Assembly: GCA_024279935.1 (NCBI GenBank)
Contig: JAJRQZ010000076.1
Span: 1-64,000 of the forward strand
DNA length: 64,000 nucleotides
Source of the DNA: Bacteroidota bacterium
GTDB lineage: Bacteria; Bacteroidota; Bacteroidia; Bacteroidales; F082
Direction of reading: 5' to 3'
This document shows positions 2,737-27,299 of the stretch, in pieces (the first letter of the stretch is position 1; each line of letters begins with the position of its first letter). The notes beneath the pieces are model-generated. The model ran no database searches, was not told the origin of the DNA, and was given only the letters and a program-made list of their open reading frames with translations. A program made the translations under genes and the position numbers.

Positions 2737-2913
2737 GTTACAACTCAGCAGGTTTATCAAGTTGATTATCAATAGCCCCATACTTCAGCGTGGGGTTATA
2801 TATTTGAAATCTCAGTAGTTTTGGAGGAAATTTTGTGTTTTTCAAACATAAATTGTGACAAAACGGATAGGTAACCAATGAGTTAATATTTTTCTCTACT
2901 GCTGAGTAGTAAC
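2737..2913 (+). mobile_element. 177-bp MITE-like element, copy 1
   Basis: First of four near-identical 177-bp copies. The ends are GTTACAACTCAGCAG (one mismatch to the family end) and CTGCTGAGTAGTAAC, which form a 15-bp terminal inverted repeat. The copy is flanked by the direct repeat AAAAAGTT on both sides (2729-2736 and 2914-2921), the expected 8-bp target duplication. An internal hairpin of the AGCCCCATGC-TTCA-GCGTGGGGCT type lies near 2774-2797. No transposase is encoded. The right end lies directly beside the stop codon of an RHS remnant. The bases between the polyphosphate kinase gene and this element (2527-2736) hold no gene I can support. Confidence 0.92.
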
Positions 2914-2920
2914 AAAAAGT

Positions 2921-3178
2921 TTAATGTAATACCCTCGAACCATTGTACCAAAAGCTTTGTCTGTCAAGTTGAGATGGAGCAGCATTTTTAAAGCCAGCTT
3001 CTCTTACAGAAGAATTTAATAAACCAGTTGCACTTCCTGTTAAACCTTGTTGCCCAAGTGGCCTATTAGCTAAAGAAGCATCTAAAGTAACAGGGGCTGA
3101 CAATGCTCCGATCATGACAAAAATAATATCCACACTAGGGTCAGTATGCTTCAACGGGTTATTGAGCACATAACTATA
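2921..3178 (-). pseudogene. RHS-repeat core C-terminal fragment (polymorphic toxin remnant)
   Basis: The open frame begins directly after a stop with YSYVLNNPLKHTDPS. This is the signature end of the RHS-repeat-associated core, normally preceded by hundreds of residues that are missing here. About 70 residues follow (DIIFVMIGALSAPVTLDASL and onward) with no domain I recognise. They may be the start of a variable C-terminal toxin region. The only in-frame start would be a GTG inside the core motif, so this is a gene fragment and not a functional start. It ends against the target duplication of the neighbouring 177-bp element. A second RHS fragment lies at 8716-9839. Confidence 0.7.
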
Positions 3179-3194
3179 TCAATCATAATTTCAT

Positions 3195-4664
3195 TTATAA
3201 TAAATATATTATGCACAATAAGCCAACACCGCCCATGACTATTGCATAAGGGAAGGCCATTTTTACCATTTTCCCATAGGAGAGGTTAATCAATGGGGCT
3301 AAGGCAGATGTGAGCAGGAACAGAAATGCCGCCTGGCCATTAGGCGTGGCAACACTTGGCAGGTTTGTGCCAGTGTTTATCGCAACGGCAAGTTTTTCGT
3401 ATTGTTCGCGTGATAAGTCCCCGGCATTGAATGCTGCCTCGATCTCGTTAATATATACCGTTGCCACAAATACGTTATCGCTGATAGCCGACAATAAGCC
3501 ATTTGCGATATAGAACATTACAGGCTGCATGCTTGCTTCCATCGAAAGAGCCAATTCAATAAGCGGTTTAAATAAATGTTGGTCATGAATCATTGCAACT
3601 ATTACAAAGAACACTACCAACAGGGCCGTAAATGGAAGGGCTTCCTTGAATGCCGGTGCAATATTGTGCTCGTCGGTGATGCCCATAAAGGCCGTTTGAA
3701 AAACAATAAGCGCTAAACCGATAAAGCCTACGGGAGCAAGGTGCAACGCAAGGCCAATAATTAGTAACAGCATTGCTGCCGCCTGGACCACGAGTTTGTA
3801 TTTCTCGTTTCTGCTACGCTTTTTATCTTCTGAAATAGTATAATTATAGATAATTTTCCGGGCTACATCAGGCAGCCCCCCCCCAAAACCAAATAGCTTG
3901 AATTTCTCAAGAATTACCGTTGTCAATAATCCTGCAAAGAAAACCGGGATAGTTATAACATCCATTTGCAAGAAGAACTCAATAAAGTCCCAGCCCATCT
4001 TCTCTCCGATTAACAGGTTTTGCGGTTCGCCCACCAAGGTCATGACACCGCCAAGTGCAGTTCCCACAACGCCGTGCATTATCAGGCTCCTCAAAAATCC
4101 CCGGAACTGCTCAAGAGTTTCGCCACTTAATTGTGTCCGGTCTATTATGCCGTCCCCATCAATGTCAAGATCGCTTGATTGGATTTTGTGATAAACGCCA
4201 TAAAAGCCCACGGAAACACTTATAAGGACGGCCGTAACCGTTAGTGCATCCAGGAATGCAGACAGGACGGCCGAGAGGATGACAAACAAAAGCGATAGTG
4301 CTATTTTTGATCTCACCTTTGTAAAAATCTTACTGAAAATATACATCAGCAGCGGTTTCATAAAGTAAATCGCGGCAACCATAAACATTAAAAGCAGGAT
4401 AACTTCCAGGTTTTGCTCCACCTCATGATAAGCATTGTTTGCAGAAGTAAGTTTCAGCGCCAAAATTTGAATAGCCAATAAGCCTCCTGATATCAATGGA
4501 TAGCATTTTAGGGCCATGGCAAGAGTAAAGATAAATTCTGCAATAAATATCCATGCTGTTATGGTTGGCCCGAGGGTGAAATAGGAGAGTACATTAAATA
4601 TCAGAAAACCTATTATCGTATATTTATACCAATTGGGGCTGTTGCCCAAGAAATGTTTCATCAT
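3195..4664 (-). CDS. nhaB: Na+/H+ antiporter, NhaB family
   Basis: Inner-membrane sodium/proton exchanger for sodium expulsion and pH homeostasis. The 489 residues are close to the NhaB family length of about 500. The protein is hydrophobic with roughly a dozen membrane segments. Family-like stretches include [17 protein letters not shown] at the N-terminus, [20 protein letters not shown] in the middle and a helix-breaking [20 protein letters not shown] near residue 430. The start has two adjacent ATG codons (4664 and 4661). It is the last gene of a minus-strand run downstream of the DUF2490, SulP and carbonic anhydrase genes. This suggests a joint role in sodium, bicarbonate and pH balance, which is inference. 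Confidence 0.9.
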
Positions 4665-4681
4665 TTTTATATTATTTTTAA

Positions 4682-5374
4682 TTAATCATTTTTATTCCTG
4701 AAATCAGCATTGAAAACCAGGGTGAACTGCAAATACCATTTTCCGGAATCTGTAAGCTGCTGATGCATTACCCCAGCCTGTGCGCTTGCCAGTTTATGAA
4801 ACTGATAACCCAATGCCCCATATAGCCTGTTGCGGTCGAAAAAGCCCTTTTCCGTATTCAGGAATATTTCGTCGTAAAGGCCAATAAAAAAGCTACCTTT
4901 CTCAATTATTGGTTTGTTTAGCGGGGCGAATAACATTAGGCGATAACGTAGGCGGTTCCTGTATTCGGAGCTTGCCCATCGTTGCTCTATGCGATAGCGG
5001 TGCTCAAGTTTTACCCGGCCAATGTTATTTGTTAAAATAAATTGCTGCCAGATACGGTGTTCTATCGTCTCCGGTGCTTTCTGTTCCGAATCAAAAATAT
5101 AAGAAGGGATATATGCGTATCCCGCACTTACAAATGCCTTGTTCGAGAAATGATAATTCAGCCCAAGCCGCAACAGCAACTGTTCAGTGTTATTTGGCGC
5201 AATCGTATGGTTGCGGTATTGAAATTCGGTATGAACGCTAATTTTATCGCTTATTTTATTCATCCCAAAATACATCAGCCAATTGCCTGCCTCATCTTGC
5301 TGGGCAAGCATGGAAACAGGCAATAGGACCAACATCAGGATTAAGCTTTTGTTGAGGATTCTTGATAGGTTCAT
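4682..5374 (-). CDS. DUF2490 family outer-membrane-like protein
   Basis: About 230 residues starting at [15 protein letters not shown], a clear signal peptide ending at VSMLAQQ. The body has the alternating pattern of a beta-barrel and the family-like opening [20 protein letters not shown]. It ends in an aromatic/hydrophobic strand, [12 protein letters not shown] chose the ATG at 5374 because it gives the signal peptide and lies one base after the SulP stop, implying translational coupling. A longer frame to 5419 would overlap that gene. The function is unknown. Its placement between SulP and NhaB suggests an outer-membrane partner or a passive operon member. Confidence 0.8.
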
Positions 5375-5375
5375 A

Positions 5376-7271
5376 TTACATCTTTGCGATGTTGTTGGTA
5401 TAAACCTCATCTTCCACATTCTCCTTGACCCATGCCAGGCAGTTGGCGAAATTGTCGAAGACCTGCTCTGTCGGTATTAAGTCAGGGATGATGTCAATCC
5501 GCTCAAGCATATATCGCGGTTGCTTTAAGACTGACACCAGCAAAACTGTTTTCCCTTGTTTGGCCAGGTCAACCAATACATCTTCCATGGCATATAATCC
5601 CGACTGGTCGATATACGGCATTCTTCCCATCCTGATGATGATGGTTGATGTTTTGTCGGGTATTTGTTTGACCAGCTGTTGAAAATAGTTTGTGGAACCA
5701 AAGAACAAGGGGCCCCTGATATGTTTGATGAATATATCTTCTTTTATACTTTTTGGAATGGTGATCTCATCCGGCCAGGCTTTCGACCTGTCGAATGATT
5801 CCACGCTTGAGCGTTCTGCTGTTACATCGCCAATTTTCTTCATGAACATCAGTGATGCGATAATTAGGCCTACGCCCACCGCATATACCAAATTCCAAAC
5901 AGAAGACAATATTAATACTACCAGCATTATGATCACTTCGGGGCGGGGCATATAAGGTATTGCCTTGAGTCCTTTATAATCCATCACACCTATGCCCACG
6001 GTTATTAATATTCCGGCTAAAACCGCCGCAGGGATTTGTGAGGCAACAGGGCCTAATGCCAATAATATCACCAGGAGCAAAACCCCGGCCATCATACCCG
6101 AAAGACGGGTTTTCCCACCAGCGTTTATATTGACGACTGTCCGGATAGTGGCACCTGCCCCGGGAATGCCACCAAAGATGGCGGCAACGCTATTGCCAAT
6201 GCCCTGGCCAACCAGTTCCTTATTGGGATTATGCTTTGTCTTGGTCATATTGTCGGCAACCACGGAAGTAAGCAAGGAATCAATCGCCCCAAGGAGCGCC
6301 AAAGTTAAAGCCGTTAAAATATATGGTGAAATACTGTTGAAGCTGAAGTTTGTAAAAATCCCAAAGTTAGGGATCGGCAAGCCTCCCGGTATTTCTTCAA
6401 TGGGCCGATAATTCAAGCCGAAACCTATCGCTATGGACGACATTACAAGCAGGGCCACCAATGTGCTTGGTATTTTGGTTGTTATTCGTTTGAACCCGAA
6501 TATTATAAGAATAGTGCCCAATGCCAAAAGCAGTTCGAGCCAATTGATATTTGCCAGTGCCCTGGGAAGTACTTTTATGGCACCGATAACGCCCGATGCC
6601 TCGGAATTTGCCAATGATTGCGATTCTTTAAGAATCTGCTCCTCGGTAATATGTTCCGCCAGGTTGATGGTCTCCTTAAAATCCTCTAATACCAGTATGC
6701 CTTCGCCTGCTTCGTCTTTCAGTATCTTATGCAGGATAATTTCTTCAGCCTGAGGCTTGAACTGATTAACCAGCCCTACATCTTCTTTTGGGTAATATCC
6801 AACGGAAGGCAGGATCTGCGTAACTAATATGATTACACCGATGGCAGTCATAAACCCCGAAACTACAGGGTAGGGAATATATCTGATATATTTTCCCAGA
6901 CCAATCAATCCTAATCCTATCTGCATTAAGCCGGCCAATAGGAACACTATTAGTATAGCCGGTAGAGCATTGCCTATATCACCGTCGAAAGTTGCTACAA
7001 TCCCTGCAATTACTACCATGCTGACTGCTGTCATCGGGGCCGTGGGCCCTGAAATCTGGGTATTGGTGCCGCCAAAAAGTGCAGCAAAGAAACTTACGAA
7101 AATTGCTCCGTAAAGCCCTGCGCTGGGGCCTAGACCCGAGCTTACCCCAAAAGCGAGCGCCAATGGCAGGGCAACTATCCCTGCCGTAATACCTCCGAAC
7201 ATATCGCCTTTGATGTTGGAAAAATCAAAACCGAAGATTTTTGTGTTTTTGTTCTTTTTTGTGAAATTCAT
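5376..7271 (-). CDS. SulP family anion permease with STAS domain (bicarbonate or sulfate)
   Basis: A 631-residue inner-membrane transporter. The N-terminus has the SulP signature GGITAGIVALPLALAFGVSSG followed by about a dozen membrane segments. The C-terminus is a cytoplasmic STAS domain from about residue 530, with IDQSGLYAMEDVL holding the DxSG motif. A soluble insertion of roughly 65 residues near 170-240 (HKILKDEAGEGILVLEDFKE and onward) makes it longer than typical members. It lies 8 bp downstream of a carbonic anhydrase gene on the same strand. This favours bicarbonate (BicA-like) over sulfate as substrate, though sequence alone does not settle that. Confidence 0.92.
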   Translation of the reverse strand: MNFTKKNKNTKIFGFDFSNIKGDMFGGITAGIVALPLALAFGVSSGLGPSAGLYGAIFVSFFAALFGGTNTQISGPTAPMTAVSMVVIAGIVATFDGDIGNALPAILIVFLLAGLMQIGLGLIGLGKYIRYIPYPVVSGFMTAIGVIILVTQILPSVGYYPKEDVGLVNQFKPQAEEIILHKILKDEAGEGILVLEDFKETINLAEHITEEQILKESQSLANSEASGVIGAIKVLPRALANINWLELLLALGTILIIFGFKRITTKIPSTLVALLVMSSIAIGFGLNYRPIEEIPGGLPIPNFGIFTNFSFNSISPYILTALTLALLGAIDSLLTSVVADNMTKTKHNPNKELVGQGIGNSVAAIFGGIPGAGATIRTVVNINAGGKTRLSGMMAGVLLLVILLALGPVASQIPAAVLAGILITVGIGVMDYKGLKAIPYMPRPEVIIMLVVLILSSVWNLVYAVGVGLIIASLMFMKKIGDVTAERSSVESFDRSKAWPDEITIPKSIKEDIFIKHIRGPLFFGSTNYFQQLVKQIPDKTSTIIIRMGRMPYIDQSGLYAMEDVLVDLAKQGKTVLLVSVLKQPRYMLERIDIIPDLIPTEQVFDNFANCLAWVKENVEDEVYTNNIAKM

Positions 7272-7279
7272 TTATTGCT

Positions 7280-7933
7280 TTATTTTAAAAATTCAACTTT
7301 GCCGTTCCCAACATCATACATTGCCCCTACAATATCTATTTCCCCGCGATTATATAGCTCATGAAGTATAGGACTTTGCGTATTGATGTTTTCCATTGTT
7401 TGTTCTACATTCCGCAGGGCGACCCTGTTTACAAAGCCGGCGTTGTCTGAGGTTCTGTCCTCGTTTTTCTTTGTTTTGGTTGAATGTACCGCAGGCATGA
7501 GTTTGCCGAGCAGTTGCGTTAAGTTGCCTGCCTGTACATTGTCGCAGGCGCCTTTTACCGCACCGCAGGAAGTATGTCCCATTACCACCACTAATTTTGC
7601 CCCGGCAAATTTGCATGCGAACTCCATGCTGCCAAGAATGTCTTCGTTGACAAAGTTGCCGGCAATACGTACGTTAAATATATCTCCTATTCCCTGGTCA
7701 AATATTATTTCCGTAGGAATACGCGAATCTATACAGCTTAAAACAACTGCAAAAGGGAACTGGCCTTCGGCAGTTTGGGCAATCTGCCGCTCAAGCTTCC
7801 TGTCCAGCCGCTCGCATTTTAGAAAGCGTTTATTGCCTGTTTTAAGAATTTCAACTGCCATATTGGGAGTGATAAGGCCTTGCGAACCTGATGTTTGGGT
7901 TTTCGAATTGTCTATAAAATCTAGTTTTTTCAT
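7280..7933 (-). CDS. Beta-carbonic anhydrase
   Basis: Zinc enzyme interconverting CO2 and bicarbonate. The 217 residues contain both metal/catalytic motifs of beta-class enzymes: SCIDSRIP (Cys, Asp-Arg dyad) near residue 67 and GHTSCGAVKGA (His and Cys ligands) near residue 119. No signal peptide is visible, so it is cytoplasmic. It is the first gene of the minus-strand run with the SulP transporter, consistent with trapping imported bicarbonate or supplying it to carboxylases. A short remnant of a second carbonic anhydrase C-terminus is found at 24380-24439. Confidence 0.95.
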   Translation of the reverse strand: MKKLDFIDNSKTQTSGSQGLITPNMAVEILKTGNKRFLKCERLDRKLERQIAQTAEGQFPFAVVLSCIDSRIPTEIIFDQGIGDIFNVRIAGNFVNEDILGSMEFACKFAGAKLVVVMGHTSCGAVKGACDNVQAGNLTQLLGKLMPAVHSTKTKKNEDRTSDNAGFVNRVALRNVEQTMENINTQSPILHELYNRGEIDIVGAMYDVGNGKVEFLK

Positions 7934-8157
7934 TTTTTGTTATTTTATTTTGAAACATAATTCTCCATGGACGCGATGGAATTCGCTCAGGATAAAAGAA
8001 ATAAGATTTGATTATTGTTAATGTCGGGACTTAGTGCTGCCTGGCTCAAAGCATTAATAAAACACTATGTTAATAGCAAAGGCATTATCAAGCCAATTAG
8101 GTTGAATTGCACCAAATCAAAGCTAAAAGTTACTGCGCCATTAAAGCGCATAAATTT

Positions 8158-8529
8158 TTATGAATGGAAAAGTAAATGTTCGGGTGGCGGGGTGGTAACT
8201 TCAGAATACAGCCGTAAGGGGAAATATTCAAAGCTTATGTTGTTTATCACCTTTTCCGAATCGTCAAAGTTTGTTGGGTTTAGGTCAACTAAAAATTTAT
8301 CTGCTTTATCTTTCTTGTCATCTTCTTCCCGTGGCTCATTGTTATCGCAACCATAAAGTTCGATAAGCTCCGATTTTGAATCTATCAACCAATAGCAATA
8401 TGAAATGGTATTGGTCCAGAACTGACCAATAAGCACCAAGACGATAATGCTTTTTAGAAAAAACTGATATGTTGTAGCTTTTTTCAAGTTTGACGCAAGT
8501 TTATTTTTTACGAATTGCAAAACTAACAT
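8158..8529 (-). CDS. Small hypothetical membrane protein
   Basis: About 123 residues from the ATG at 8529 (MLVLQFVKNKLASNLKK). One membrane segment, FFLKSIIVLVLIGQFW, is followed by a charged segment, EPREEDDKKDKADKFLVDL, and a short tail ending PPPEHLLFHS. Small single-span proteins of this plan occur in many Bacteroidota, often near metal or efflux genes; I know no function. An in-frame extension to 8625 adds a basic stretch and looks less likely. It is the leftmost intact gene before the toxin graveyard at 8.7-9.8 kb, and the 186 bases between them hold nothing I can identify. Confidence 0.5.
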   Translation of the reverse strand: MLVLQFVKNKLASNLKKATTYQFFLKSIIVLVLIGQFWTNTISYCYWLIDSKSELIELYGCDNNEPREEDDKKDKADKFLVDLNPTNFDDSEKVINNISFEYFPLRLYSEVTTPPPEHLLFHS

Positions 8530-9210
8530 TTTTACAGTATGAAGTAGGATTTGTTTTCGCCGTTTTTTATTTTTTAGCTTATTGGCCCCGTGCGGCTCAA
8601 AACCTTTGCTGGGTTTTAAGGTCAATTACATAAGCCAGTTTCGTAAAAATTCATGTTAGAATGATGATGACCTTCATTAATATAGTTTGTCCCTTCCGTT
8701 TTGGGTTCTAATTTCCTATGCATTGCCTACCACTATGGTCGTATAAACATTAAATTCAGAAACGAAGTCTGCGATACCGATTATGGGCAGCAGCAGTTCG
8801 TTAATTGTCACCAGAAGATATCCAGGCATCATTTGTAATTGAAAATGAAAAATCCCTGCCAATCCTCATACCGCAAACCAATTGGATTGTGGATCGTTAA
8901 GCCCGTATTTAGTCACTCCAAGAGAGAAACCTAAATTATTTTGCTTATCAAGATAAGGGACTCAACCACCAACTCTGCTCTCAAAGCCCCCATTATGTCC
9001 AGCAATACTTGCGCCACCACTAATTGTCCAGTCCCCATTAAAATAACTTGCATTTAAACTAATGCCTAAGCCATTAAATGAAATTGAATGATTTACAGAT
9101 ATTTACCAATTATCATCTTGATATACTTGGAAAGAATGTGTTATAGAAAATGCTGCAATATTGATTGCTGTACTGCCCAAATAATTACCAGTTGCACCAA
9201 TAGTTAAATA

Positions 9211-9628
9211 GGGTCTGCTGAAAAAGTCTGTTTGCATCATATACGAAGCCGCAAGGTGAAGATGTATAATAATACTGCGAGCCGCCGCAATGAAGTAGAT
9301 GATGTACTACGGGCTAGCAAACAAGATTTTTAGAAAAAATGCCGGCCTTTTTAATAGGTCCTTGGAAAAAGCTAGTATTCGGTTACTACTCAGCAGGTTC
9401 ATCAAGTTGATTATCAATAGCCCCATGCTTCAGCGTGGGGCTATATATTTGAAATCTCAGCAGTTTTGGCGGAAATTTTGTGTTTTTCAAACAAAAATTG
9501 TGACAAAACGGATAGGTAACCAATGAGTTAATGTTTTTCTCTACTGCTAAGTAGTAACCGTATCCGTAATTAACAAAAATCGTGTAACAATTTATATCTC
9601 ACGTTGTTAGGCGTTTTTCAGCAGACCC
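9211..9628. mobile_element. Second small element with 15-bp terminal repeats, carrying a nested MITE
   Basis: The ends GGGTCTGCTGAAAAA (9211-9225) and TTTTTCAGCAGACCC (9614-9628) are perfect inverted complements. TAAATA flanks both sides (9205-9210 and 9629-9634), a 6-bp direct duplication. The element is 418 bp as found. Without the 177-bp element inside it and one 8-bp duplication it would be about 233 bp, too short for a transposase, and none is encoded. The end sequence resembles those of IS4/IS5-type insertion sequences, but I cannot name the family. It interrupts the RHS/toxin remnant. Confidence 0.85.
9382..9558 (+). mobile_element. 177-bp MITE-like element, copy 2 (nested)
   Basis: Same family and length as the copies at 2737, 11350 and 27062. 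It begins GTTACTACTCAGCAG and ends CTGCTAAGTAGTAAC, one base off the family end. The flanks are AGTATTCG (9374-9381) and CGTATCCG (9559-9566), agreeing at 6 of 8 positions, a decayed 8-bp duplication. The internal hairpin is best preserved here: AGCCCCATGC-TTCA-GCGTGGGGCT. It lies wholly inside the 418-bp element and so arrived later. Confidence 0.9.
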
Positions 9629-9839
9629 TAAATATCCAGATTCAAACAATGCAGCATTCTTCCAGGCCCTGCCTCCACAAAAGTTCCGGCAGACAGCCAT
9701 GAATCGTCGGTGCGGCTGTTCATGTTTGTAAGGCCGAAATTTGTTAGGTGTTCAACGCCCTTGATGCCGCGTTCAGTAAAAACAAAGTCTGTATCCCGGT
9801 GAGACAGCGATATTTTATTAAAAGCATTGTTATTATGTC

Positions 9840-11105
9840 TTATGTAGTTTGTAAAGCATTTAGCAACAGCCATTTGTAAACAGGAAGCACCTTGATCGAT
9901 TTCCCGTTTTTATTTATCTCGAACTCCTCATTTTCGGTTAATATTAAACCTTCCTTTAAGTTATGTATTTCCATTGCTTCCGTTAATCCTGATATTTCCC
10001 GTGCCATGACATCTTGGTCAACCAATGATTGAGTTACTTGGATGGCTCCGGTAATTTCTAGTTTTTCGCATATTAGGAAATCGCATTCTTTTTTCAATTT
10101 GTGATAATACAATTCATGACCTCTTCGTTTCAACTCCAAAAAAACCGTATTCTCCAAAAAACGACCCCTGTCCTCCGAAAACCTAAAACTAATATTCCTT
10201 GCCATCGCATTATCGATGAAATATATTTTTTTAGGGTTGTTTATCTGTTTCTTTATCGAAAAATTGAAGTTTGGCAATAAAAATACTAGATATGTGTCTT
10301 CTAAATACTTAAGATATTTTTTAACGGTATTAACATGTTTTACGTTGATTATTGCACAAAGTTTATTGTAAGATACCGGTTTCCCTATATTTCCAGCTAT
10401 AAAATAGCCCAACTCCCTAACTTCTAGTTCGTTTTGCAATTTATTCCTTGCAATAACATCCCTATATAAAATGCTGTCGTAAATAAATTTTAAATATTCG
10501 GTATTATTATTTATGAGGAATTCCGGAAACCCGCCTTTTATAAGGTAATTGTCGAACTGTTTCTTAAGCTCCACTTTGGTTTCGATAGAATAAATGTCCT
10601 TTTTAGAGTAGTTTATATTATTGAAATCCAGAAATTCAATAAATGAAAAAGGGAAAAGCTCAAATTGAATGTGGCGACCCGTTAAATGAGTTCCCAGCTC
10701 CCTACTTAATAAATTAGCATTCGAACCTGTTATATATATCTTATTACCTTGGTTGTGCAGCCTTCTAACGAAATATTCCCAATATTCAATATTCTGTATC
10801 TCATCAAAATAAAATGTCTTTTGCAGGCCGAATAATTCAATGAGCGATTCATAGAGTTTTTGAAAATCATCCTTGGTAAAATGAAGCAAGCGTTCATCAT
10901 CAAAATTTAAAAGATAATCTTGCTCCGGTTGGGTTTCTCTAATTTGTTGCATGAGAGTTGATTTTCCACATCTCCTTACTCCAGTTAAAATTGTTATTTG
11001 AGGAATTTCTTTTAATTGTTTGAATTTCGTTCTGCTCACTAACCTATTTGGCTTAAAGCTAGTGTTTTGTTGAATAATAATTTCTTTGAGCGTTGTAGTT
11101 TCCAT
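9840..11105 (-). CDS. DUF4143 family ATPase (AAA-type ATP-binding protein)
   Basis: 421 residues. The Walker A region ILTGVRRCGKSTLMQQI lies near residue 36, the Walker B-like FYFDEIQNIEYWEYFV near residue 97, and the sensor-type YITGSNANLLS near residue 125. The C-terminal half has the DUF4143 domain with ISFRFSEDRGRFLENTVFLE and the nuclease-like VFLELKRRGHELYYHKLKK / CDFLI. Such genes are scattered and horizontally mobile in Bacteroidota; their role is unsettled. The stop overlaps the edge of a dead toxin gene. Upstream are two palindrome-like repeats that could be operators. Confidence 0.9.
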   Translation of the reverse strand: METTTLKEIIIQQNTSFKPNRLVSRTKFKQLKEIPQITILTGVRRCGKSTLMQQIRETQPEQDYLLNFDDERLLHFTKDDFQKLYESLIELFGLQKTFYFDEIQNIEYWEYFVRRLHNQGNKIYITGSNANLLSRELGTHLTGRHIQFELFPFSFIEFLDFNNINYSKKDIYSIETKVELKKQFDNYLIKGGFPEFLINNNTEYLKFIYDSILYRDVIARNKLQNELEVRELGYFIAGNIGKPVSYNKLCAIINVKHVNTVKKYLKYLEDTYLVFLLPNFNFSIKKQINNPKKIYFIDNAMARNISFRFSEDRGRFLENTVFLELKRRGHELYYHKLKKECDFLICEKLEITGAIQVTQSLVDQDVMAREISGLTEAMEIHNLKEGLILTENEEFEINKNGKSIKVLPVYKWLLLNALQTT

Positions 11106-11135
11106 GGCATCTCAATTTTTGCAAATATATAAAAT

Positions 11136-11185
11136 ATGTATTTGAAATGCAAAAATATATATAATAATATGCATTTGAAATGCAT
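11136..11185 (-). promoter_or_regulatory. Paired palindromic operator candidate upstream of the DUF4143 ATPase
   Basis: ATGCATTTGAAATGCAT (11169-11185) is a 17-base palindrome around one central base. A close copy, ATGTATTTGAAATGCA, begins at 11136, 33 bp away, about three helix turns. The pair sits 31-80 bp upstream of the ATPase start. The spacing and symmetry suggest a dimeric repressor site, but no regulator is adjacent. Nothing else is seen from 11186 to 11349. Confidence 0.4.
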
Positions 11186-11349
11186 TATATATCTAATATT
11201 TATAAACAAAGTCGTGCGGCCACTGTATCACTTTCTTCGATTTTAATGCTTTGAGCAATAGGATGCTGGAGGAGGTTAGGGGGGTAAAGAGAGATTAATG
11301 GGGGAACGATCTTACATTGGTTTTTGCTTTTTATCCATAGAAAACTATG

Positions 11350-11526
11350 GTTACTACTCAGCAGGTTTATCAAGTTGATTATCAATAGCCCCATGCTTCA
11401 GCGTGGGGTTATATATTTGAAATCTCAGCAGTTTTGGCGGAAATTTTGTGTTTTTCAAACAAAAATTGTGACAAAACGGATAGGTAACCAATGAGTTAAT
11501 GTTTTTCTCTACTGCTGAGTAGTAAC
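11350..11526 (+). mobile_element. 177-bp MITE-like element, copy 3
   Basis: Perfect 15-bp terminal inverted repeats, GTTACTACTCAGCAG and CTGCTGAGTAGTAAC. The flanking 8-mers AAACTATG (11342-11349) and AAGCTATG (11527-11534) match at 7 of 8 positions. The internal hairpin is conserved. It lies in an intergenic stretch and disrupts no gene I recognise. Confidence 0.93.
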
Positions 11527-11607
11527 AAGCTATGACTTACCCGGATACTGTTTCATTTTAACAAAAATCAACCCATATCAACCTCAAAAATATTCTTAAC
11601 TAATAAA

Positions 11608-18603: not shown

Positions 18604-18866
18604 TTGATGATTTTATAATAACGATAACAAATGTAATAACATTTTCGTTGTTGGCATGATTTTAGTTAACGGAATTTGAAAAAATAATTAACAAAATAAG
18701 CAATATTGTTAATTTCTCATTTCCTTTCAAAAAACCGGGGAATGCAATTTCTGGCAATCCTGCATTTGTTTTTTAGTTAAAATACAGATAATGAGGCACT
18801 TCGTTTTTTTGACATCTCTAATTGTAACGCTAAGTGCTGAAAACAATCGTGTTCAGGTATTTCAGA

Positions 18867-20306: not shown

Positions 20307-20369
20307 TTTTGAAGTTTTTGAAAATAATTTGCAAAAAAACTAAAATTTAATGAACTAGCACACTTATTT

Positions 20370-21263
20370 TTACGAATTCTTGGCCTTATGCTTTTTGGCC
20401 TCCCTTTCCATAAGCGATATGAATTTGTGCGGCAAAGGAAGTGGGATTTCTATTTTTTGTCCGTTACCGGGATGCGAAAAGCTTAGGGATGATGCACATA
20501 AAAACATCCCTTTGCCCTTTAATAAAGGAGAGCCGTCATTATTATAAAGCTTATCTCCCACTATTGAATGGCCTATGCCGGACAAATGTATCCGCAATTG
20601 ATGCCTTCGGCCTGTGGCAGGATGTAATTCTATTAAACTAATGTCTCCCGCAACCAGCGACGGAATTGTTTTGATTGTTGAATAGGTGGTTTTTGCCTTT
20701 TTGCCACCAATATCCTCATTTATCTCGCCATTACTTTTTGTTTGGCCGTTCACAATGGCGTGATAGGTCTTAAAAACTTTGTTTTCGGCAAACTGCTTGC
20801 CCAAGCTGGCAGCGGCCGAATGTGTTTTGGCGCAGACTAGTAAACCACTTGTCGAATAATCCAGTCTGTGAACAGGTACAGGCCGGCCTAATAAGCCGGT
20901 TTTAGCCGATGGTTTTAGGTTGTGGGATAGAGCATTTTGTATGGTCTTGAATTTGTTCCCGCTTACTTCAAAGCCGGCCGGTTTGTTGATAACTGCAATG
21001 TCATCATCTTCATAGCAAACTTCCAGCTTTAGCGTAAAAACTTTATGACCTGAGCGCGCTGCCCCGAAAAGTTCTACTTTATCCCCTTTATTTAAATACC
21101 TGGCCGATTCAACTTGCTTGCCGTTCAGTTTTATCATACCCGATTTTATGGCATTTTTAATGCCTTTTCTCGAATTTAACAACTGCATTTCCGAGATGCA
21201 AAAATCGAGTAGCCGAACCGGGTTTTCCAATTTTCCAACAATGAGCTTTTCAACGGGATTCAT
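20370..21263 (-). CDS. RluA-family pseudouridine synthase
   Basis: 297 residues. The N-terminal S4-like RNA-binding region includes SGMIKLNGKQVESARYLNKG. The catalytic domain has PVPVHRLDYSTSGLLVCAKT near residue 130 with the catalytic aspartate in HRLD, and LHPATGRRHQLRIHLSGIGH near residue 215. It isomerises uridines in rRNA or tRNA; the exact target cannot be read from sequence. No membrane segment or signal peptide. A terminator for the upstream gene lies just before its start. Confidence 0.93.
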   Translation of the reverse strand: MNPVEKLIVGKLENPVRLLDFCISEMQLLNSRKGIKNAIKSGMIKLNGKQVESARYLNKGDKVELFGAARSGHKVFTLKLEVCYEDDDIAVINKPAGFEVSGNKFKTIQNALSHNLKPSAKTGLLGRPVPVHRLDYSTSGLLVCAKTHSAAASLGKQFAENKVFKTYHAIVNGQTKSNGEINEDIGGKKAKTTYSTIKTIPSLVAGDISLIELHPATGRRHQLRIHLSGIGHSIVGDKLYNNDGSPLLKGKGMFLCASSLSFSHPGNGQKIEIPLPLPHKFISLMEREAKKHKAKNS

Positions 21264-21280
21264 TGTTGCAAAAGTAGCAT

Positions 21281-21316
21281 AAAAAAATCCAGACAGCCGA
21301 CAGGCTCGTCTGGATT
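21281..21316 (-). terminator. Rho-independent terminator
   Basis: On the minus strand the stem AATCCAGAC-GAGCC, loop TGTC, GGC-T-GTCTGGATT is followed by a run of seven T. It ends the transcript of the 21393-21743 gene, just ahead of the RluA-family gene. Confidence 0.85.
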
Positions 21317-21392
21317 ACCAAAAAACTATTCAGGTTCTTAAAAGCATAAACCTGAGGCCCCCTGTTGAACAAGAGGGTATGTGGATTGAAGT

Positions 21393-21743
21393 TTACCTTA
21401 AATCGTAGGTTATTTTCATCAGCATCCACTGACCTGAATATGCGCTAAAATCATCGGACGTGATTTTCTCGATGGTTTTTACGGTAAAATCCTTCATCTT
21501 TTCACATGATGAATTGGCACGATCAACTTCTAGTCCCCCGTTTTCGTTTACAATAATTCTGGCATAGACCGAGCATTCGGTTCTGCTGTCGATTGCAAAT
21601 TGCGGGTAATAGAGTTTCTTACGTATGGCTTCTTTTAACTCTTTGCTTACCTGACTGTTGGCAGGAATGGGCTCGGATGCAAAAGAAACCGTGCTTAAAA
21701 AAATGCCCAATAACAGCATAACAGTTGCGATTCTTGTCTTCAT
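21393..21743 (-). CDS. Small secreted protein of unknown function
   Basis: 116 residues with the signal peptide MKTRIATVMLLLGIFLSTVS and cleavage after about residue 22. The mature part has two cysteines and a pattern like a TonB-C-type or energy-transducing fold (YPQFAIDSRTECSVYARIIV, then LEVDRANSSCEKM). Bacteroidota encode many such small periplasmic proteins, and I cannot assign a role. Its promoter would lie in the 495-base gap 21744-22238. In that gap I see only the regulatory signals at its right end. Confidence 0.75.
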   Translation of the reverse strand: MKTRIATVMLLLGIFLSTVSFASEPIPANSQVSKELKEAIRKKLYYPQFAIDSRTECSVYARIIVNENGGLEVDRANSSCEKMKDFTVKTIEKITSDDFSAYSGQWMLMKITYDLR

Positions 21744-22198
21744 GACTTAATGTATTAGTTAAAAATATAATGGTTGCGATTGGGGTTCTGCTAATGTCGT
21801 GCCATAAAGGCTAACGTTCATAAAAACAGAGGTTAAAATAAATTTTCCAATCATAGTTAATAGTTATCTGTTCGTTCGCAAACATCCAATGTACATCTGC
21901 GAACAGCTTGCCGTATATTATGAATATAATGGCTGTTTGTAATAGGGGACCCCCAAGTCTATTGTTATTAAATAACTATGGATTAATGCTTTAGATTGAT
22001 ATAAATTCACGATAAAATCTAATTTCCAGATTAATTTAACAAATCAGGGACTTTGGTTTGAGCAAAAACCCCCTAAAAAAGTGACGAAAACCATTAGATT
22101 CATTCTAAATATGATTTGTAAAATACATTAGAACAGAGCAATATGATTGTTGTTGCTCAGCATAGCACTAATTAGGCGCGAGGCTAATGAATTAAATT

Positions 22199-22228
22199 TA
22201 GATTTGTATCCTATAAAACTTATAGGAT
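22199..22228 (+). promoter_or_regulatory. Promoter -7 box and palindromic operator of the Rrf2 gene
   Basis: TAGATTTG (22199-22206) fits the Bacteroidota -7 consensus TAnnTTTG. Two bases on, ATCCTATAA-AAC-TTATAGGAT (22208-22228) is a perfect 9-bp inverted repeat. It ends 10 bases before the Rrf2 start codon and overlaps the expected transcription start. This is the arrangement of an autoregulatory operator for a dimeric Rrf2 protein. A convincing -33 box is not seen. The rest of the gap back to 21744 is A/T-rich with no gene found. Confidence 0.65.
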
Positions 22229-22238
22229 TAATCGGATT

Positions 22239-22676
22239 ATGCGAATTAACACCAAGGTGAGATATGGTTTACGGGCAATGATTGAAATTGCAAAAAATAA
22301 CGATGGGAAAGCTGTTCTGCAAAAGGATATTTCGAGGGCACAAGAAATATCAGCTGGTTACCTCGATACTATTATCGCAAGTTTGAAGAGTGCAGGCTTA
22401 ATTAAGAATTATGCCGGTAAGCATAGTGGATATATTTTGACAAAAAGCGCAGTTGATATAAATGTTTATGATATTTATAAGGCCTTCGAGCCTGATATAA
22501 ACATAGTGAATTGTACTTACCCTTCTAATGAATGCTCAAGATTAAATATCTGTCCCGCAACGGATTATTGGTCTGGCTTAAATGATGTTATCCGTGAGAA
22601 TATGATAAACACCAGTTTAAGGAGTTTGTTGAGGGAAGAAATAGTAAAATTAAATAAAATTAAAATTCACAATTAA
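22239..22676 (+). CDS. Rrf2 family transcriptional regulator with iron-sulfur cysteine triad
   Basis: 145 residues. The N-terminal winged helix starts MRINTKVRYGLRAMIEIAKN and has the recognition segment ISAGYLDTIIASLKSAGLI. Three cysteines at 92, 99 and 105 (NCTYPSNECSRLNIC, spacing C-x6-C-x5-C) closely match the cluster ligands of IscR (92, 98, 104) and NsrR. It therefore probably senses redox state, iron-sulfur supply or nitric oxide. It is 11 bp upstream of the duplicated cytochrome gene, so the two likely form one autoregulated operon controlled through the palindrome at 22208. Confidence 0.92.
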   Translation: MRINTKVRYGLRAMIEIAKNNDGKAVLQKDISRAQEISAGYLDTIIASLKSAGLIKNYAGKHSGYILTKSAVDINVYDIYKAFEPDINIVNCTYPSNECSRLNICPATDYWSGLNDVIRENMINTSLRSLLREEIVKLNKIKIHN

Positions 22677-22687
22677 AATAGAATATT

Positions 22688-24313
22688 ATGAGAAGACTTA
22701 GTTTTTTATTGTTGGTTTCAGTAGTAGTGGCTTTTACTTCATGTAAAAAGACCGAAACTCCTACCGATGACCCAAATGATGTTGCTTATGCAGCAGCGGA
22801 TGCCGCAAAAGGTGGCATAATGTATGACAAATTCTGGGCCACGGAGTCTGGTTTTGACCAAAATGACGCCAATTTGGCCAAGTTTAACGACTACAGCAAC
22901 TTTTTCCGTTGTAAACAATGTCATGGTTGGGATGGACTTGGCAACAAAGGTGCTTATATTAACCGTAAGCCAAAAACATCCAGGCCAAATGTTACTGCTT
23001 TCGATATGATGGAAGTTCGCCAAAACGACGCACCTATCGATATCTTCAATGCTATTAAAGGTATAGGTGGCGATCGCCGCGATATTTCTTATGATTTAAG
23101 TGCCTATGATCCAGCTTCTAACAACGTAGATGGTGATATGATGCCAGACTTTAGCCAGATTTTAACTGATGCCCAAATTTGGGATCTTGTTAAATTTATA
23201 AAAGAAGGCATGTTCGATGTAACCGAGCTTTATGATGCAACTTATGAAGGGACATATCCTACAGGAAGCGTTACTTTCTCAAACTTAGGCCTTGACGGGA
23301 ATGCCGCGAACGGAAAAACTTTCTATGCAGCAAATTGTGCCGCTTGTCATGGTGCCGACGGAACCACTCTTGCGCTGGAAGATGATAAAACGGTTGGTAG
23401 CTTTGCAAGAACTAAAGCTAACGAAGCTCAACATAAGGTACATTATGGTCAGCTTGGCACTGCAATGACAGGACAATTTGATCTTAGTGTTTCTGATATG
23501 AAAGATCTTTATAAAGCGCTTTCCAGTGAAACAGATTTTCCAAATAATCCTGCCAACGTGGCCGATGGCGCCTTAGGTGGAATTATGTATGACAAATTCT
23601 GGGCCGCTGAATCAGGTTTCGACCAAAATGACGCTAATCTGGCTACATTTGACAACTATAGCAATTTCTTCCGTTGCAAGCAATGCCACGGTTGGGACGG
23701 GCTTGGGAGAAATGGTGCTTATATCAACAGAGCCCCTAAAACATCAAGGCCTAACGTATCTGCAGTTGACATGATGGAAGTTCAGGCCAACGATGATCTA
23801 CAAGAAATTTTTGACGCAATTAAAGGCGAAGGTTTCGACCGTAGGGATATTTCATACGATCTTGCATCTTACGATCCTGAAACCAACAGCGCTGATGGCG
23901 ACAGAATGCCTTACTTTGGACAGATTTTAACTGATGCTCAAATTTGGAATCTTGCTAAATTCATCAAAGATGGCTTATTTGACGTGAGCCTGCTTTATGA
24001 TGCTACTTATGAAGGTACTTATCCAACCGGGACGGTAACTTTTGCAAACATAGGCCTTGATGGTGACGCCACTGCCGGTGATGCATACTATGCTGCCAAT
24101 TGCGCACAATGCCATGGTGCCGATGGTATGACACTGGAACTTGAGGGAGGGAGACATGTTGGTAGTTTTACCAGGCAAAAAGCTAACGAGGCACAACATA
24201 AAATTCATTATGGTCAACTTGGCTCGTTAATGGCCGGTAACTTTGATATTACTTTAACAGGAATGAAAGATTTGTATAAAGCATTGGATGATGCTGCAAA
24301 TTACCCTGATTGA
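22688..24313 (+). CDS. Four-haem c-type cytochrome lipoprotein with internal duplication
   Basis: 541 residues. The lipoprotein signal ends FTSC (Cys19), so it is probably anchored in an outer or inner membrane facing the periplasm. There are four haem motifs: CKQCH at 75, CAACH at 217, CKQCH at 330 and CAQCH at 472. The protein is two copies of a 255-residue unit, each with one FFRCKQCHGWDGLG site and one ANCA.CHGADG site; both pairs are offset by exactly 255. Electron transfer is the likely role, and partners are not in the window. It follows the Rrf2 gene, suggesting redox- or NO-controlled expression. Confidence 0.9.
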   Translation: MRRLSFLLLVSVVVAFTSCKKTETPTDDPNDVAYAAADAAKGGIMYDKFWATESGFDQNDANLAKFNDYSNFFRCKQCHGWDGLGNKGAYINRKPKTSRPNVTAFDMMEVRQNDAPIDIFNAIKGIGGDRRDISYDLSAYDPASNNVDGDMMPDFSQILTDAQIWDLVKFIKEGMFDVTELYDATYEGTYPTGSVTFSNLGLDGNAANGKTFYAANCAACHGADGTTLALEDDKTVGSFARTKANEAQHKVHYGQLGTAMTGQFDLSVSDMKDLYKALSSETDFPNNPANVADGALGGIMYDKFWAAESGFDQNDANLATFDNYSNFFRCKQCHGWDGLGRNGAYINRAPKTSRPNVSAVDMMEVQANDDLQEIFDAIKGEGFDRRDISYDLASYDPETNSADGDRMPYFGQILTDAQIWNLAKFIKDGLFDVSLLYDATYEGTYPTGTVTFANIGLDGDATAGDAYYAANCAQCHGADGMTLELEGGRHVGSFTRQKANEAQHKIHYGQLGSLMAGNFDITLTGMKDLYKALDDAANYPD

Positions 24314-24334
24314 CAGGTATTTAATTATATTCTC

Positions 24335-24373
24335 AAAAGCAGTCCCACCGCCTTGTGTGAGGCTGCTTTTTTT
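24335..24373 (+). terminator. Rho-independent terminator
   Basis: AAAAGCAGTCCCACCGCC, then TTGTG, then TGAGGCTGCTTTTTTT: an imperfect stem with an 8-bp closing helix and a T run, 21 bp after the cytochrome gene. Confidence 0.8.
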
Positions 24374-24379
24374 ATTGTT

Positions 24380-24439
24380 ATCGAAAAGCTCAACCCTGCC
24401 GCTGCCAACATCATATCGAGTGCCGATATTTATTGTCTC
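24380..24439 (-). pseudogene. Remnant of a second beta-carbonic anhydrase C-terminus
   Basis: On the minus strand 20 codons read [20 protein letters not shown]. The C-terminus of the intact carbonic anhydrase at 7280 reads EIDIVGAMYDVGNGKVEFLK. The two agree in pattern with one residue deleted, and the DNA is also similar around TATGATGTTGG. No stop follows at the expected place and no upstream domain remains. This is a fossil of a lost copy between the cytochrome terminator and glnS. Confidence 0.6.
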
Positions 24440-24516
24440 ATTGTTTTTGTTTCATGTTAAAACATGAGTATTTTCAATTAATTTTGCATTTCGAATTAAT
24501 TTCAAAGAGTTTAAAC

Positions 24517-26199
24517 ATGGATACTCCTGAAAATGAAAAGCGATCGCTTAATTTTATCGAAAGCATAATCGAAGAAGACCTTCGCGAAAACAAAAACGAA
24601 GGCCGGATTCATCTGCGCTTCCCTCCCGAGCCTAATGGCTATCTTCATATAGGTCATGCAAAATCAATTTGCCTCAATTTCGGCCTTGCCGAATCATATA
24701 ATGGAATGTGCAATCTTCGCTTCGACGATACCAATCCTGAAAAGGAAGATGTGGAATATGTTGATTCAATTAAAGAGGATATTAATTGGCTGGGTTTCAA
24801 ATGGAACGACCAGCCTTACTTTGCGTCGGATTATTTTGACCAGTTGTATGACTGGGCGGTAAAGCTAATTAAGGACGGTAAAGCTTATGTTGACGACCAG
24901 CCTCAGGAACTGATTCGCGAGCAGAGGGGGATTCCAACGCAAGCAGGAGTTGAAAGCCCGGGCAGGAAACGTAGCATCGAAGATAACATTAAGCTTTTCG
25001 AAGGCATGAAAAATGGCGAATATCCTGATGGCTCGATGGTTTTGAGGGCCAAAGTTGACATGACCTCGCCAAATATGCATTTGCGCGACCCGATAATGTA
25101 CCGAATCCTTCATAAGGAACACCATCGTACGGGCGATAAATGGAATATTTATCCCATGTACGACTGGGCTCACGGACAATCGGATTATATTGAGGGAATT
25201 ACCCATTCCGTATGTACTTTGGAATTTGAGGTTCACCGCCCGCTTTATAATTGGTTTTTGGATCAAATTGCCGAAAACAAATATAGGCCAAGACAGATTG
25301 AATTTGCCCGGCTAAATCTTTCATATACTGTGATGAGCAAACGTAAACTGCTGGAACTAGTTGAGGATAAGTATGTTAATGCTTGGGATGATCCTCGTAT
25401 GCCCACAATCTCGGGATTGAGGCGTAGAGGTTATACAGCCGGCTCAATAAGGGCTTTTGCAGAAAGAATCGGAGTTGCGAAGCGCGATAACGTTATCGAT
25501 GTCGGGCTCCTGGAATTCAGCGTTCGCGAACATTTAAATAGTATCGCACCAAGGGTGTTTGGGGTTTTGAACCCTGTAAAAGTTGTAATTACCAATTATC
25601 CTGAAGGAAAAGTAGAGGATATGGAGCTTATTAACAACCCTGAGGATGCGGAAGCGGGAAGCCGTAAAGTACCGTTTACAAGGGAGATTTTTATCGAGCG
25701 CGACGACTTTATGGAAGATGCACCTAAGAAGTTCTTTCGAATGGGCCCGGGACGGGAGGTAAGGCTAAAGGGCGCCTATATTGTTAAATGCGAGGATTTC
25801 GCAAAAGATACAAATGGAAATATCTCAGAGATTTATTGTACTTACGATCCCGATACCAAATCGGGTAGCGACAGCAGCGGTAAGAAAGTGAAAGGTACTT
25901 TGCATTGGGTTTCGGCTACTCATAGTTTTAATGCGGAAGTGCGTTTATACGATCGTCTTTTTAGCGATGAGGATCCCGCCGGACACAAAGAGGTTGACTT
26001 TAAAGAATTCTTAAACCCCGATTCCCTGAGAATATTGCCTGGCTGCAAACTTGAGCCCTCCTTGAAAGATGCACGAATTGGCGATAAATTCCAATTCCAG
26101 AGGTTGGGCTATTTCTGCGTTGACAAGGACAGCACTCCTGAGAAAATGGTGTTCAACCGTACTGTCCCACTAAGGGATAGCTGGGGGAAAAGAAAATAG
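24517..26199 (+). CDS. glnS: Glutamine-tRNA ligase
   Basis: Class I aminoacyl-tRNA synthetase charging tRNA-Gln directly. 560 residues from the ATG at 24517. An upstream frame extension to 24433 overlaps the carbonic anhydrase remnant and adds a non-family leader, so I reject it. The nucleotide-binding motif is [17 protein letters not shown] near residue 37. The second signature [10 protein letters not shown] near residue 272 is the KMSKS equivalent. The C-terminal anticodon-binding beta-barrel is complete ([19 protein letters not shown]). Having GlnS implies a direct Gln charging route. Confidence 0.96.
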
Positions 26200-26252
26200 T
26201 CTTGGTTACCGAAAACAAGATACTCTCCCCCAATCATTTATGTGGCTTGATG

Positions 26253-26282
26253 TTTGTGATATATATCTTTGTCTTATATTTG
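26253..26282 (+). promoter_or_regulatory. Promoter of the toxin-antitoxin pair
   Basis: TATATTTG (26275-26282) fits the Bacteroidota -7 element TAnnTTTG, with TTTG at 26253-26256 18 bases upstream as the -33 element. The start codon of the antitoxin follows 26 bases later. The leader between them is A/T-rich with a TTTCATAAATATAAAATATC stretch that could bind the ribbon-helix-helix repressor; this is unproven. Confidence 0.55.
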
Positions 26283-26308
26283 TATTTCATAAATATAAAA
26301 TATCCGTC

Positions 26309-26542
26309 ATGACTACTTTTACCTCAACATTGCCTGATGATCTTTTGTCTCATTTGAACGAGAAGGCAAAAATGTTAGCCTTGCCAAAAAATAAAATAAT
26401 CGAAAGGGCACTGCGAATTTATCTTGATCAATTGAATCGTGCCGAATATATTAAGTCTTATAAAAATGCAAGTAAGGATGCGAACATACTTGATATCGCT
26501 GAGGAAGGCATGGAAGATTATGTTAAACAGCTGGATTTATGA
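26309..26542 (+). CDS. Ribbon-helix-helix antitoxin
   Basis: 77 residues from the ATG at 26309, MTTFTSTLPDDLLSHLNEKA, followed by LALPKNKIIERALRIYLDQL. This is the beta strand plus two helices of a CopG/MetJ-like DNA-binding fold. The acidic C-terminal tail EEGMEDYVKQLDL is the likely toxin-binding part. Its stop codon overlaps the toxin start by four bases (ATGA), a coupling typical of these pairs. An upstream extension to 26240 crosses the promoter and is not used. It should repress its own operon together with the toxin. Confidence 0.85.
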   Translation: MTTFTSTLPDDLLSHLNEKAKMLALPKNKIIERALRIYLDQLNRAEYIKSYKNASKDANILDIAEEGMEDYVKQLDL

Positions 26543-26871
26543 GGCAGCGGGAAATTTGGTATGCTAAGCTAAATCCTGTTAAGGGCAGTGAACAACGAGG
26601 TTTTAGGCCAGTTGTGATTATTAGTGGAAACATGCTTAACGAACATTTGAAAATAGTTATCGCTTGTCCGTTGACATCTAAAATCACAAATTACAAAGGA
26701 AATGTTATGCTAAGCCCATCAGTTGAAAACGGCTTGCACAAACAATCAGAAGTGTTGATTTTTCACATGCGATCCATTTCAAAAGATAGGCTTGTGAAGA
26801 AAATAGGTATTATTTCTCATGATGAATTATCTCAGCTAAAACATGGGCTTGATGATATTTTAAGATACTAA
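26539..26871 (+). CDS. MazF/PemK-type mRNA interferase toxin
   Basis: 110 residues with the MazF pattern: MRQREIWYAKLNPVKGSEQR, then GFRPVVIISGNMLN, IACPLTSKITNYKGNVML, and late QSEVLIFHMRSISKDRLVKK. The family cuts RNA at short sequences when the antitoxin is lost. It begins inside the antitoxin stop (ATGA). No frame damage is seen, so the pair is probably active. The adjacent DNA to the right is scarred by a mobile element. Confidence 0.92.
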   Translation: MRQREIWYAKLNPVKGSEQRGFRPVVIISGNMLNEHLKIVIACPLTSKITNYKGNVMLSPSVENGLHKQSEVLIFHMRSISKDRLVKKIGIISHDELSQLKHGLDDILRY

Positions 26872-26922
26872 GCTGAGTTGGGTCTAATCTTAGACCGCTG
26901 CAATACCAGGTTTTTAAATGAA

Positions 26923-27299
26923 TTATGACAATCTTTTATTCACCTCCTTCGTTGTCTTATTTTTAAAGTCCTCACAGACAACAGTCTGCTGTGGGTTTGA
27001 AAATACTGCCGCCCTCTCAGGCAAAACACGATAGGCAGGCTCGAATTTGAACAAAATATTGGTTACTACTCAGCAGGTTTATCAAGTTGATTATCAATAG
27101 CCCCATGCTTCAGCGTGGGGTTATATATTTGAAATCTCAGTAGTTTTGGCGGAAATTTTGTGTTTTTCAAACAAAAATCGTGACAAAACGGATAGGTAAC
27201 CAATGAGTTAATATTTTTCTCTACTGCTGAGTAGTAACAAATATCTTTCGCAACGGTTTTAATCTTCGCGCTCAGCATCAGCTTATTAAAAAAAGCCAT
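26923..27299 (-). pseudogene. Small reading frame interrupted by the 177-bp element
   Basis: Read across the insertion on the minus strand, removing 27062-27238 plus one 8-bp duplication leaves a continuous 63-codon frame. It starts MAFFNKLMLSAKIKTVAKDI, continues LFKFEPAYRVLPERAAVFSN and ends KTTKEVNKRLS. Excision restores the frame exactly, so the host sequence was uninterrupted before the element came in. I do not know the family. The candidate ATG lies inside a terminator stem (27288-27318), so this may be the tail of an older gene instead of a complete one. Confidence 0.5.
27062..27238 (+). mobile_element. 177-bp MITE-like element, copy 4
   Basis: Perfect 15-bp ends GTTACTACTCAGCAG and CTGCTGAGTAGTAAC. 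The flanking 8-mers are AAATATTG (27054-27061) and AAATATCT (27239-27246), agreeing at 6 of 8 positions. The internal hairpin is conserved. It interrupts the small minus-strand frame described at 26923-27299. Confidence 0.93.

Follow-up and report, generated by a model that had tools for sequence, protein, structure and literature searches.

A stretch of 64,000 nucleotides from a Bacteroidota bacterium (order Bacteroidales; assembly GCA_024279935.1, contig JAJRQZ010000076.1, positions 1 to 64,000; hereafter the window) carries four nearly identical copies of a 177-bp repeat. Which enzyme moved this repeat, and what does it carry between its ends? A preliminary description, made from the letters of the window alone, had proposed a transposase-free element resembling a miniature inverted-repeat transposable element (MITE), with 15-bp inverted ends and 8-bp target duplications, and had suspected a parent insertion sequence (IS) that it could not name. 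The best explanation, with a probability of roughly 90%, is that the repeat is a MITE with a captured interior, moved by a DDE transposase of the IS66 family and bordered by 8-bp duplications. The window lies on contig C78, in a 3.73 Mb genome assembled in 181 contigs.

The four copies were found where they had been reported, and three of them are 96.6-98.3% identical to the copy starting at 11350. Their 15-bp inverted ends are exact at six of the eight termini, the left end of the 2737 copy and the right end of the 9382 copy containing one mismatch each. With up to three mismatches allowed, this end is matched nine times in the window (eight of these being the ends of the copies), for 0.65 matches expected in shuffled sequences. 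The flanking 8-mers agree at 8/8, 6/8, 7/8 and 6/8 positions for the copies at 2737, 9382, 11350 and 27062, exactly as first given. Two other claims stand only in part. The inner hairpin (hairpin 1) is present in the copies, but the form first given, AGCCCCATGC-TTCA-GCGTGGGGCT, exists in the 9382 copy only; the 3' side reads GGGGTT in the three others, and the 2737 copy also shows ATAC. The common orientation holds for the window, where all four copies lie on the + strand, but not for the genome, both orientations being found on contigs C67 and C107.

At least 40 copies were scored in the whole genome by similarity search. Pattern searches returned 120 matches to the 15-bp end with at most one mismatch (one for the reversed-pattern control), 60 matches to the left end extended by seven interior bases with at most two mismatches (none for the control made for this pattern) and 73 matches to an internal 47-bp hairpin core, considered below, with at most three mismatches (none for the control). 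From the fetched loci, 45 distinct copies could be aligned end to end, the others being cut by contig ends; one of the 45 (L009) is in fact the right end of an array-bearing element mis-scored as full length. The length is 177 bp in 32 of these copies and ranges from 167 to 178 bp. Comparison of the flanks over every length k from 2 to 12 identifies a target duplication of 8 bp: the match averages 0.88 at k=8 and does not exceed 0.44 for the other lengths, and perfect duplications amount to 28 at k=8, three at k=2, one at k=5 and none at any other length. Seven further copies agree at 7/8 and five at 6/8. The duplications are A/T-rich, with AAATAATT as the commonest letters among the 35 copies that agree at 7/8 or better. 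The repeat combines several of the features by which a MITE is recognized: it is short (below about 300 bp), devoid of coding capacity and multi-copy, it generates a target duplication and it shares its inverted ends with an IS.

These features bear directly on a different proposal, in which the repeat would be of the repetitive extragenic palindromic (REP) or bacterial interspersed mosaic element type, moved through its inner hairpin by a REP-associated tyrosine (HUH) transposase (RAYT), the ends being incidental. The genome does contain a RAYT gene (L088; NF047646, 91.5 bits for a cut-off of 80) and an IS200-type gene (L087), hairpin 1 looks REP-like and, by eye, similar hairpins precede the 47-bp core in relatives. 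Inverted ends of 15 bp and an exact duplication of 8 bp, as shown by the repeat, are nevertheless hallmarks of DDE transposition, HUH elements making no duplication. Furthermore, the palindrome flanking the RAYT gene, CGTCCGGATTCGCAATCCGG, is by eye different from the hairpin of the MITE. The RAYT and IS200-type genes are disfavored as movers, and this proposal appears very improbable.

The insertion history can be followed by comparison with empty sites. In the comparisons made, no doubled 8-mer was found without the element, and six comparisons support insertion; nor is the sequence part of a gene, the other possibility that the preliminary description had raised against itself. Eleven of the 39 eligible junctions were searched against four genomes of the same genus. 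Five of them are matched across in one of these genomes, G003, without the duplication and without the element, although for two of these the match is confined to repeats; the remaining six, including those of the window copies at 11350 and 2737, gave no spanning match in the four genomes. Sites 4, 6 and 9 align over nearly the whole 220 bp, with an 8-mer agreement of 7/8, 7/8 and 5/8 (the 8-mer of site 9 has itself diverged). Site 3 is matched over about 140 bp at two repeated places of G003, with an agreement of 6/8 and 7/8, and site 1, which corresponds to the window copy at 27062, agrees at 8/8 but over only about 38 bp, at the same two places. The flanks of this last copy and of two other MITE sites hold a further repeat that recurs in G003 (L183, L184).

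The window copy at 9382 offers a paralogous version of this comparison, being inserted in a second MITE-like family with the ends TAGGGTCTGCTGAAAAA/TTTTTCAGCAGACCCTA, which occupies about 38 places in G003. All five fetched G003 copies of this host repeat are uninterrupted and show a single 8-bp stretch, as in GCT[CGCATTCG]TGATTAACAAAA, to be compared with GCT[AGTATTCG]-MITE-[CGTATCCG]TAATTAACAAAA in the window. The end of this second family also follows a core hairpin in another genome, G103 (L097). At a larger scale, the flanks of window positions 8631-11600 adjoin in G003, only 6 bp apart, and the whole 3-kb stretch with its two MITEs is therefore absent there.

The suspicion of a parent IS with 8-bp duplications was borne out, and this parent can now be assigned to the IS66 family. 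The exact 15-bp end, GTTACTACTCAGCAG, was found in eight of 173 family genomes, including the present one, the reversed control giving none. In G103, which belongs to a related genus, two inverted copies of GTTACTACTCAGCAG bound 1510 bp coding for a 428-aa protein, the full-length IS with the same ends that had been called for. This protein matches PF03050 (DDE_Tnp_IS66; 1.9e-35, 123.1 bits) and NF033517 (253.9 bits, cut-off 180), passing the cut-offs of the two models as expected of an IS66 member, while zf-IS66 remains below its cut-off (23.1 for 27.3 bits). Twelve loci with the 428-aa transposase were found in named genomes, in records of Bacteroidetes/Bacteroidales, Marinimicrobia, Chlorobiota and Deltaproteobacteria metagenome-assembled genomes, where binning errors are possible. 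The exact end lies at the 3' end of the transposase gene, overlapping its last codons, in eight of the 12 loci, and with one mismatch in one more. Both exact ends are present in three of the 12, separated by 1509, 1510 and 1462 bp, one of these apparently being the G103 record itself. Small elements with the same ends and perfect 8-bp duplications also exist in other genomes, namely L120 (212 bp, G100) and L124 (675 bp, G109), the latter without any open reading frame (ORF) of at least 60 aa.

The IS has left a trace in the present genome too, where the last 43 residues of the transposase and the adjoining 15-bp end run into a contig end. Over its 136 bp, this piece shows 100% identity with a copy in G105, a member of the same related genus as G103. 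The surrounding contig shares only short repeat matches with G105; its longest match is to G005 (69%), and G003 matches at 70% beside the insertion. As the identity to G105 does not continue into the rest of the contig, a recent acquisition of the IS by horizontal transfer is suggested. A short repeat on contig C173 of this genome (L160:2292-2367) has more than 20 related places in G105 and represents another dispersed family of these genomes. The ends being identical to those of an IS66 element, and the IS end in this very genome being identical to that of a related genus, the repeat is therefore a MITE with IS66-type ends.

Several observations weigh against this assignment. Three of the 12 transposase loci lack such an end. 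No intact transposase with these ends is found in the present assembly, which holds the contig-end fragment only, and the other reading frame of IS66 type, located on C98, shows 30% identity and contains stops. Beyond the 15 bp, the ends of the MITE and of the IS show weak similarity only (E of about 0.001, ends included). Five of the 45 MITE copies have flanks agreeing at 4/8 or less, although one of these is the mis-scored array end L009. The complete IS in G103 (L159) has flanks agreeing at 4/8; those of another complete copy, L161, agree at 7/8 but within a T run, and for a third, L189, the four right-hand bases present for comparison all match (4/4). Finally, the ends start with GTTAC, unlike the IS66 ends quoted for Pseudomonas members in the available part of PMC12888890 (GTAAGCG/GTAACCG).

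From this absence of a GTAA start and of a clean duplication around complete IS66 copies, it could be argued that the ends belong to another IS family with 8-bp duplications, the IS66 gene of G103 being located between them through a nested insertion. The overlap of the exact end with the last codons of the transposase gene, and the pairs of exact ends 1462-1510 bp apart, speak against this. An arrangement kept in so many genomes is unlikely to result from nesting, and such an origin of the ends is extremely improbable. The size of the duplication is also one recorded in the family: the value 8 is given for the IS66 elements ISPpa5a and ISPpa7 in what appears to be the direct-repeat column of PMC3281130, as far as the accessible portion of that article goes. 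The parent differs from the classic members by its single 428-aa gene in about 1.5 kb, in place of the three-gene layout outlined in the same available part of PMC12888890, and by its ends, GTTACTACTCAGCAG instead of GTAA-.

Four points can be read from the sequences themselves: the inverted ends, the duplication, the history of insertion and the existence of an IS66 element that shares these ends. Mobilization in trans by the IS66 transposase is on this basis the most likely mechanism. An IS66-family DDE transposase, supplied by an IS with identical 15-bp ends, would recognize GTTACTACTCAGCAG and insert the element at A/T-rich sites, most of them between genes, each insertion leaving an 8-bp target duplication. 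The MITE itself may have arisen when IS66-type ends came to flank a leader-like unit. Such a mechanism is ordinary; the captured structured interior is unusual.

The distribution of the copies relative to genes invites another interpretation, namely that a regulatory or chromosome-structuring element (for instance a bidirectional terminator) is maintained by the host and selected at gene ends, transposition belonging only to its history. Crude ORF calling on the 38 copies with 500-bp flanks (seven had too little flank) places 14 copies between convergent genes, 16 between tandem genes (nine in the same and seven in the opposite orientation) and two between divergent genes, with three inside an ORF and three unassigned. 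The hairpins are strong, and the differences in hairpin 1 concern mostly (14 of 26) a single C/T site that keeps its pair as G-C or G-U. However, avoidance of genes and promoters accounts equally well for this location, and according to the accessible text of PMC9208149 an excess of convergent placement is reported for several IS families, IS66 among them. Hairpin 1 is not better conserved than the rest of the element (0.034 differences per base, compared with 0.009-0.031), the element is absent from the G003 sites tested, and its left end occurs in no other of 393 genomes of the order except for two look-alikes with two mismatches (G404, G555), for which no second end was found. Host maintenance as the main explanation is thus judged unlikely.

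The interior of the MITE gives only chance-level matches to the IS gene, in agreement with the transposase-free nature initially noticed, and it is not derived from the transposase gene. A similarity search detected related sequences in four of 61 genomes, including the present one. The middle of the MITE resembles G045 (74%, E 2.9e-8) and G033 (71%, E 8.7e-4), a local alignment to the latter spanning MITE positions 37-150, and 29 bp of hairpin 1 resemble G032 (90%, E 5.4e-4). The inner hairpin noticed at first thus belongs to a longer structured stretch that related genomes share. Rfam gave no match to the MITE at the gathering score and no credible one at E<=1 (one chance snoRNA match in copy 3), plasmid records gave no match to the 177 bp, and IMG/VR contained no exact match to a 26-bp interior pattern.

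This stretch includes the 47-bp core. Allowing up to three mismatches to a single pattern, the core was found in 10 of 148 other relatives (11 of 149 with the present genome; no control match), not in the four genomes of the same genus, and in none of 394 further genomes sampled from the whole phylum. The same hairpin accommodates sixteen distinct sequences, with 98.0% of the cells paired as compared with 43-56% when the structure is slid. Three pairs have both sides changed, a number reached by 12 of 500 shuffles, and the covariation score exceeds that of all 500 shuffles, which ignore relatedness. The core is a candidate for an undescribed structured element. Its interpretation as an integron attC site was dropped on the orientation of the GTT/AAC boxes, relative to the attC consensus, and a kink-turn did not fit its internal loop by eye.

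Outside the present genome, at 20 of 22 places inspected by eye, IS66 ends were not seen within 110 bp upstream or 60 bp downstream of the core, and most of these cores are preceded by other hairpins. The upstream hairpin pairs of two of the six loci compared (L097:1433-1479 and L040:1567-1613) score 33.4 and 25.9 bits, below the Rfam Acido-Lenti-1 cut-off of 37 bits, which hints at a REP-like nature of that family. On the downstream side, an ATG opening at least 80 codons lies 27-46 nt from the core in nine of the 19 loci that could be used in other genomes (test window 25-49 nt, with L117 left out at a contig end), for none of 19 on the opposite strand and 4.8% of 9500 random positions; a single genome supplied eight of the 19 loci and two of the nine positives, and two of the positives appear to be orthologues. 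This position is not preserved in the MITE copies, such an ATG occurring within 60 nt in two of 42 and one of 42 on the two sides. The genome G100, with 11 core matches, contains a repeat of about 200 bp that combines REP-like hairpins with the 47-bp hairpin and often ends at ATGAAA; it looks like a dispersed leader element. Comparison of these sequences suggests that the interior of the MITE is a captured chromosomal, lineage-specific leader-like element, a REP-like hairpin followed by the 47-bp hairpin.

Some copies have been rearranged. At two contig ends, L075:1006-1276 (C116) and L009:1501-2107 (C1), the left part and hairpin 1 form a tandem array with a spacing of mostly 57 bp, of which four and nine hairpin units are visible before the contigs end. 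The outer flanks, AAAATTTA and AAAATTAA, agree at 7/8 and may therefore be the two ends of one copy; the arrays are probably a single expanded MITE. A 167-bp deletion variant (L080) has a joint identical to that of the array units. Two other contig ends, L084 (C171) and L074 (C100), probably represent the two sides of one MITE copy interrupted by an IS, probably ISL3-like, with GGCTCTATGT-type ends and an 8-bp duplication, CAAAAATT. On C122 (L077:1216-1355), a copy stops at its position 145, and what follows until the contig ends is unrelated.

A wider proposal can be put forward only tentatively, with the odds rather against it. An IS66-type MITE may have captured, and may now disperse, an undescribed lineage-specific structured leader, made of a REP-like hairpin and a 47-nt hairpin whose internal loop, GCGG/GTGA, is conserved; in relatives this leader often precedes a start codon by 27-46 nt. 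The transposase would thereby bring a cis-acting RNA or DNA element, already complete, to dozens of new locations, and in probably one copy the hairpin unit would itself be multiplying as a tandem array with a 57-bp spacing.

The features of the window, with the G100 repeat loci, are collected in Table 1. The window also contains a SAM riboswitch at 39425-39538 (RF00162, 72.5 bits).

Table 1. Coordinates of the MITE copies, their parts and associated repeats.
Feature	Position	Strand	Basis or remark
MITE copy 1, 177 bp	2737..2913	+	flanks AAAAAGTT on both sides, 8/8
MITE copy 2, 177 bp, nested in a member of another MITE-like family, unrelated to it	9382..9558	+	paralogous empty sites in G003
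MITE copy 3, 177 bp	11350..11526	+	7/8 duplication
MITE copy 4, 177 bp, between convergent ORFs (crude ORF calling)	27062..27238	+	6/8 duplication; short junction-spanning match at two repeated G003 places
Left 15-bp terminal inverted repeat, copy 3 (equivalent place in other copies)	11350..11364	+	sequence, end search
Right 15-bp terminal inverted repeat, copy 3	11512..11526	-	sequence, end search
Hairpin 1, copy 3, AGCCCCATGC-TTCA-GCGTGGGGTT, REP-like	11387..11410	+	sequence; consensus fold
47-bp hairpin core, copy 3, common to related genomes	11431..11477	+	sequence comparison, pattern search, covariation
Left 8-bp duplication, copy 1	2729..2736 (right partner 2914-2921)	.	flank comparison
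Left 8-bp duplication, copy 2; one stretch in empty sites	9374..9381 (right partner 9559-9566)	.	G003 comparison
Left 8-bp duplication, copy 3	11342..11349 (right partner 11527-11534)	.	flank comparison
Left 8-bp duplication, copy 4	27054..27061 (right partner 27239-27246)	.	flank comparison
Member of the second MITE-like family (TAGGGTCTGCTGAAAAA ... TTTTTCAGCAGACCCTA) that hosts copy 2 and is split by it	9209..9630	.	about 38 places in G003
G100 repeat loci	L092, L101, L105, L107, L109, L111, L113, L115, L117		

Comparable elements are known from other bacteria. MITECca01 of Cardinium (about 240 bp) is likewise IS-derived and gene-less, with a lineage-specific burst and its partner IS present, but it derives from IS982, a different family, and the available part of its description (PMC9769881) mentions no captured structured element. 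MITEPsy1 of Pseudomonas syringae is also short with IS-like ends and was itself shown to transpose; it differs by its probable origin from ISPsy2 (IS5-type), its 4-nt duplication and its six copies in strain 1448A, according to the accessible text of PMC3189936. Hairpin 1 and the pre-core hairpins of relatives resemble, by eye, the REP or GTAG-tagged palindromes as they are presented in the available sections of PMC3733652, but the unit of dispersal is here bounded by inverted ends with a target duplication. No description of an IS66-derived MITE was found in the accessible texts of an open-access library, the search extending neither to subscription journals nor to ISfinder.

A parent can thus be named for an anonymous repeat family, a MITE with IS66-type ends that has multiplied in a burst. 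In addition, a conserved structured intergenic element appears to have been packaged between transposon ends, and it becomes testable whether MITEs distribute functional hairpins.

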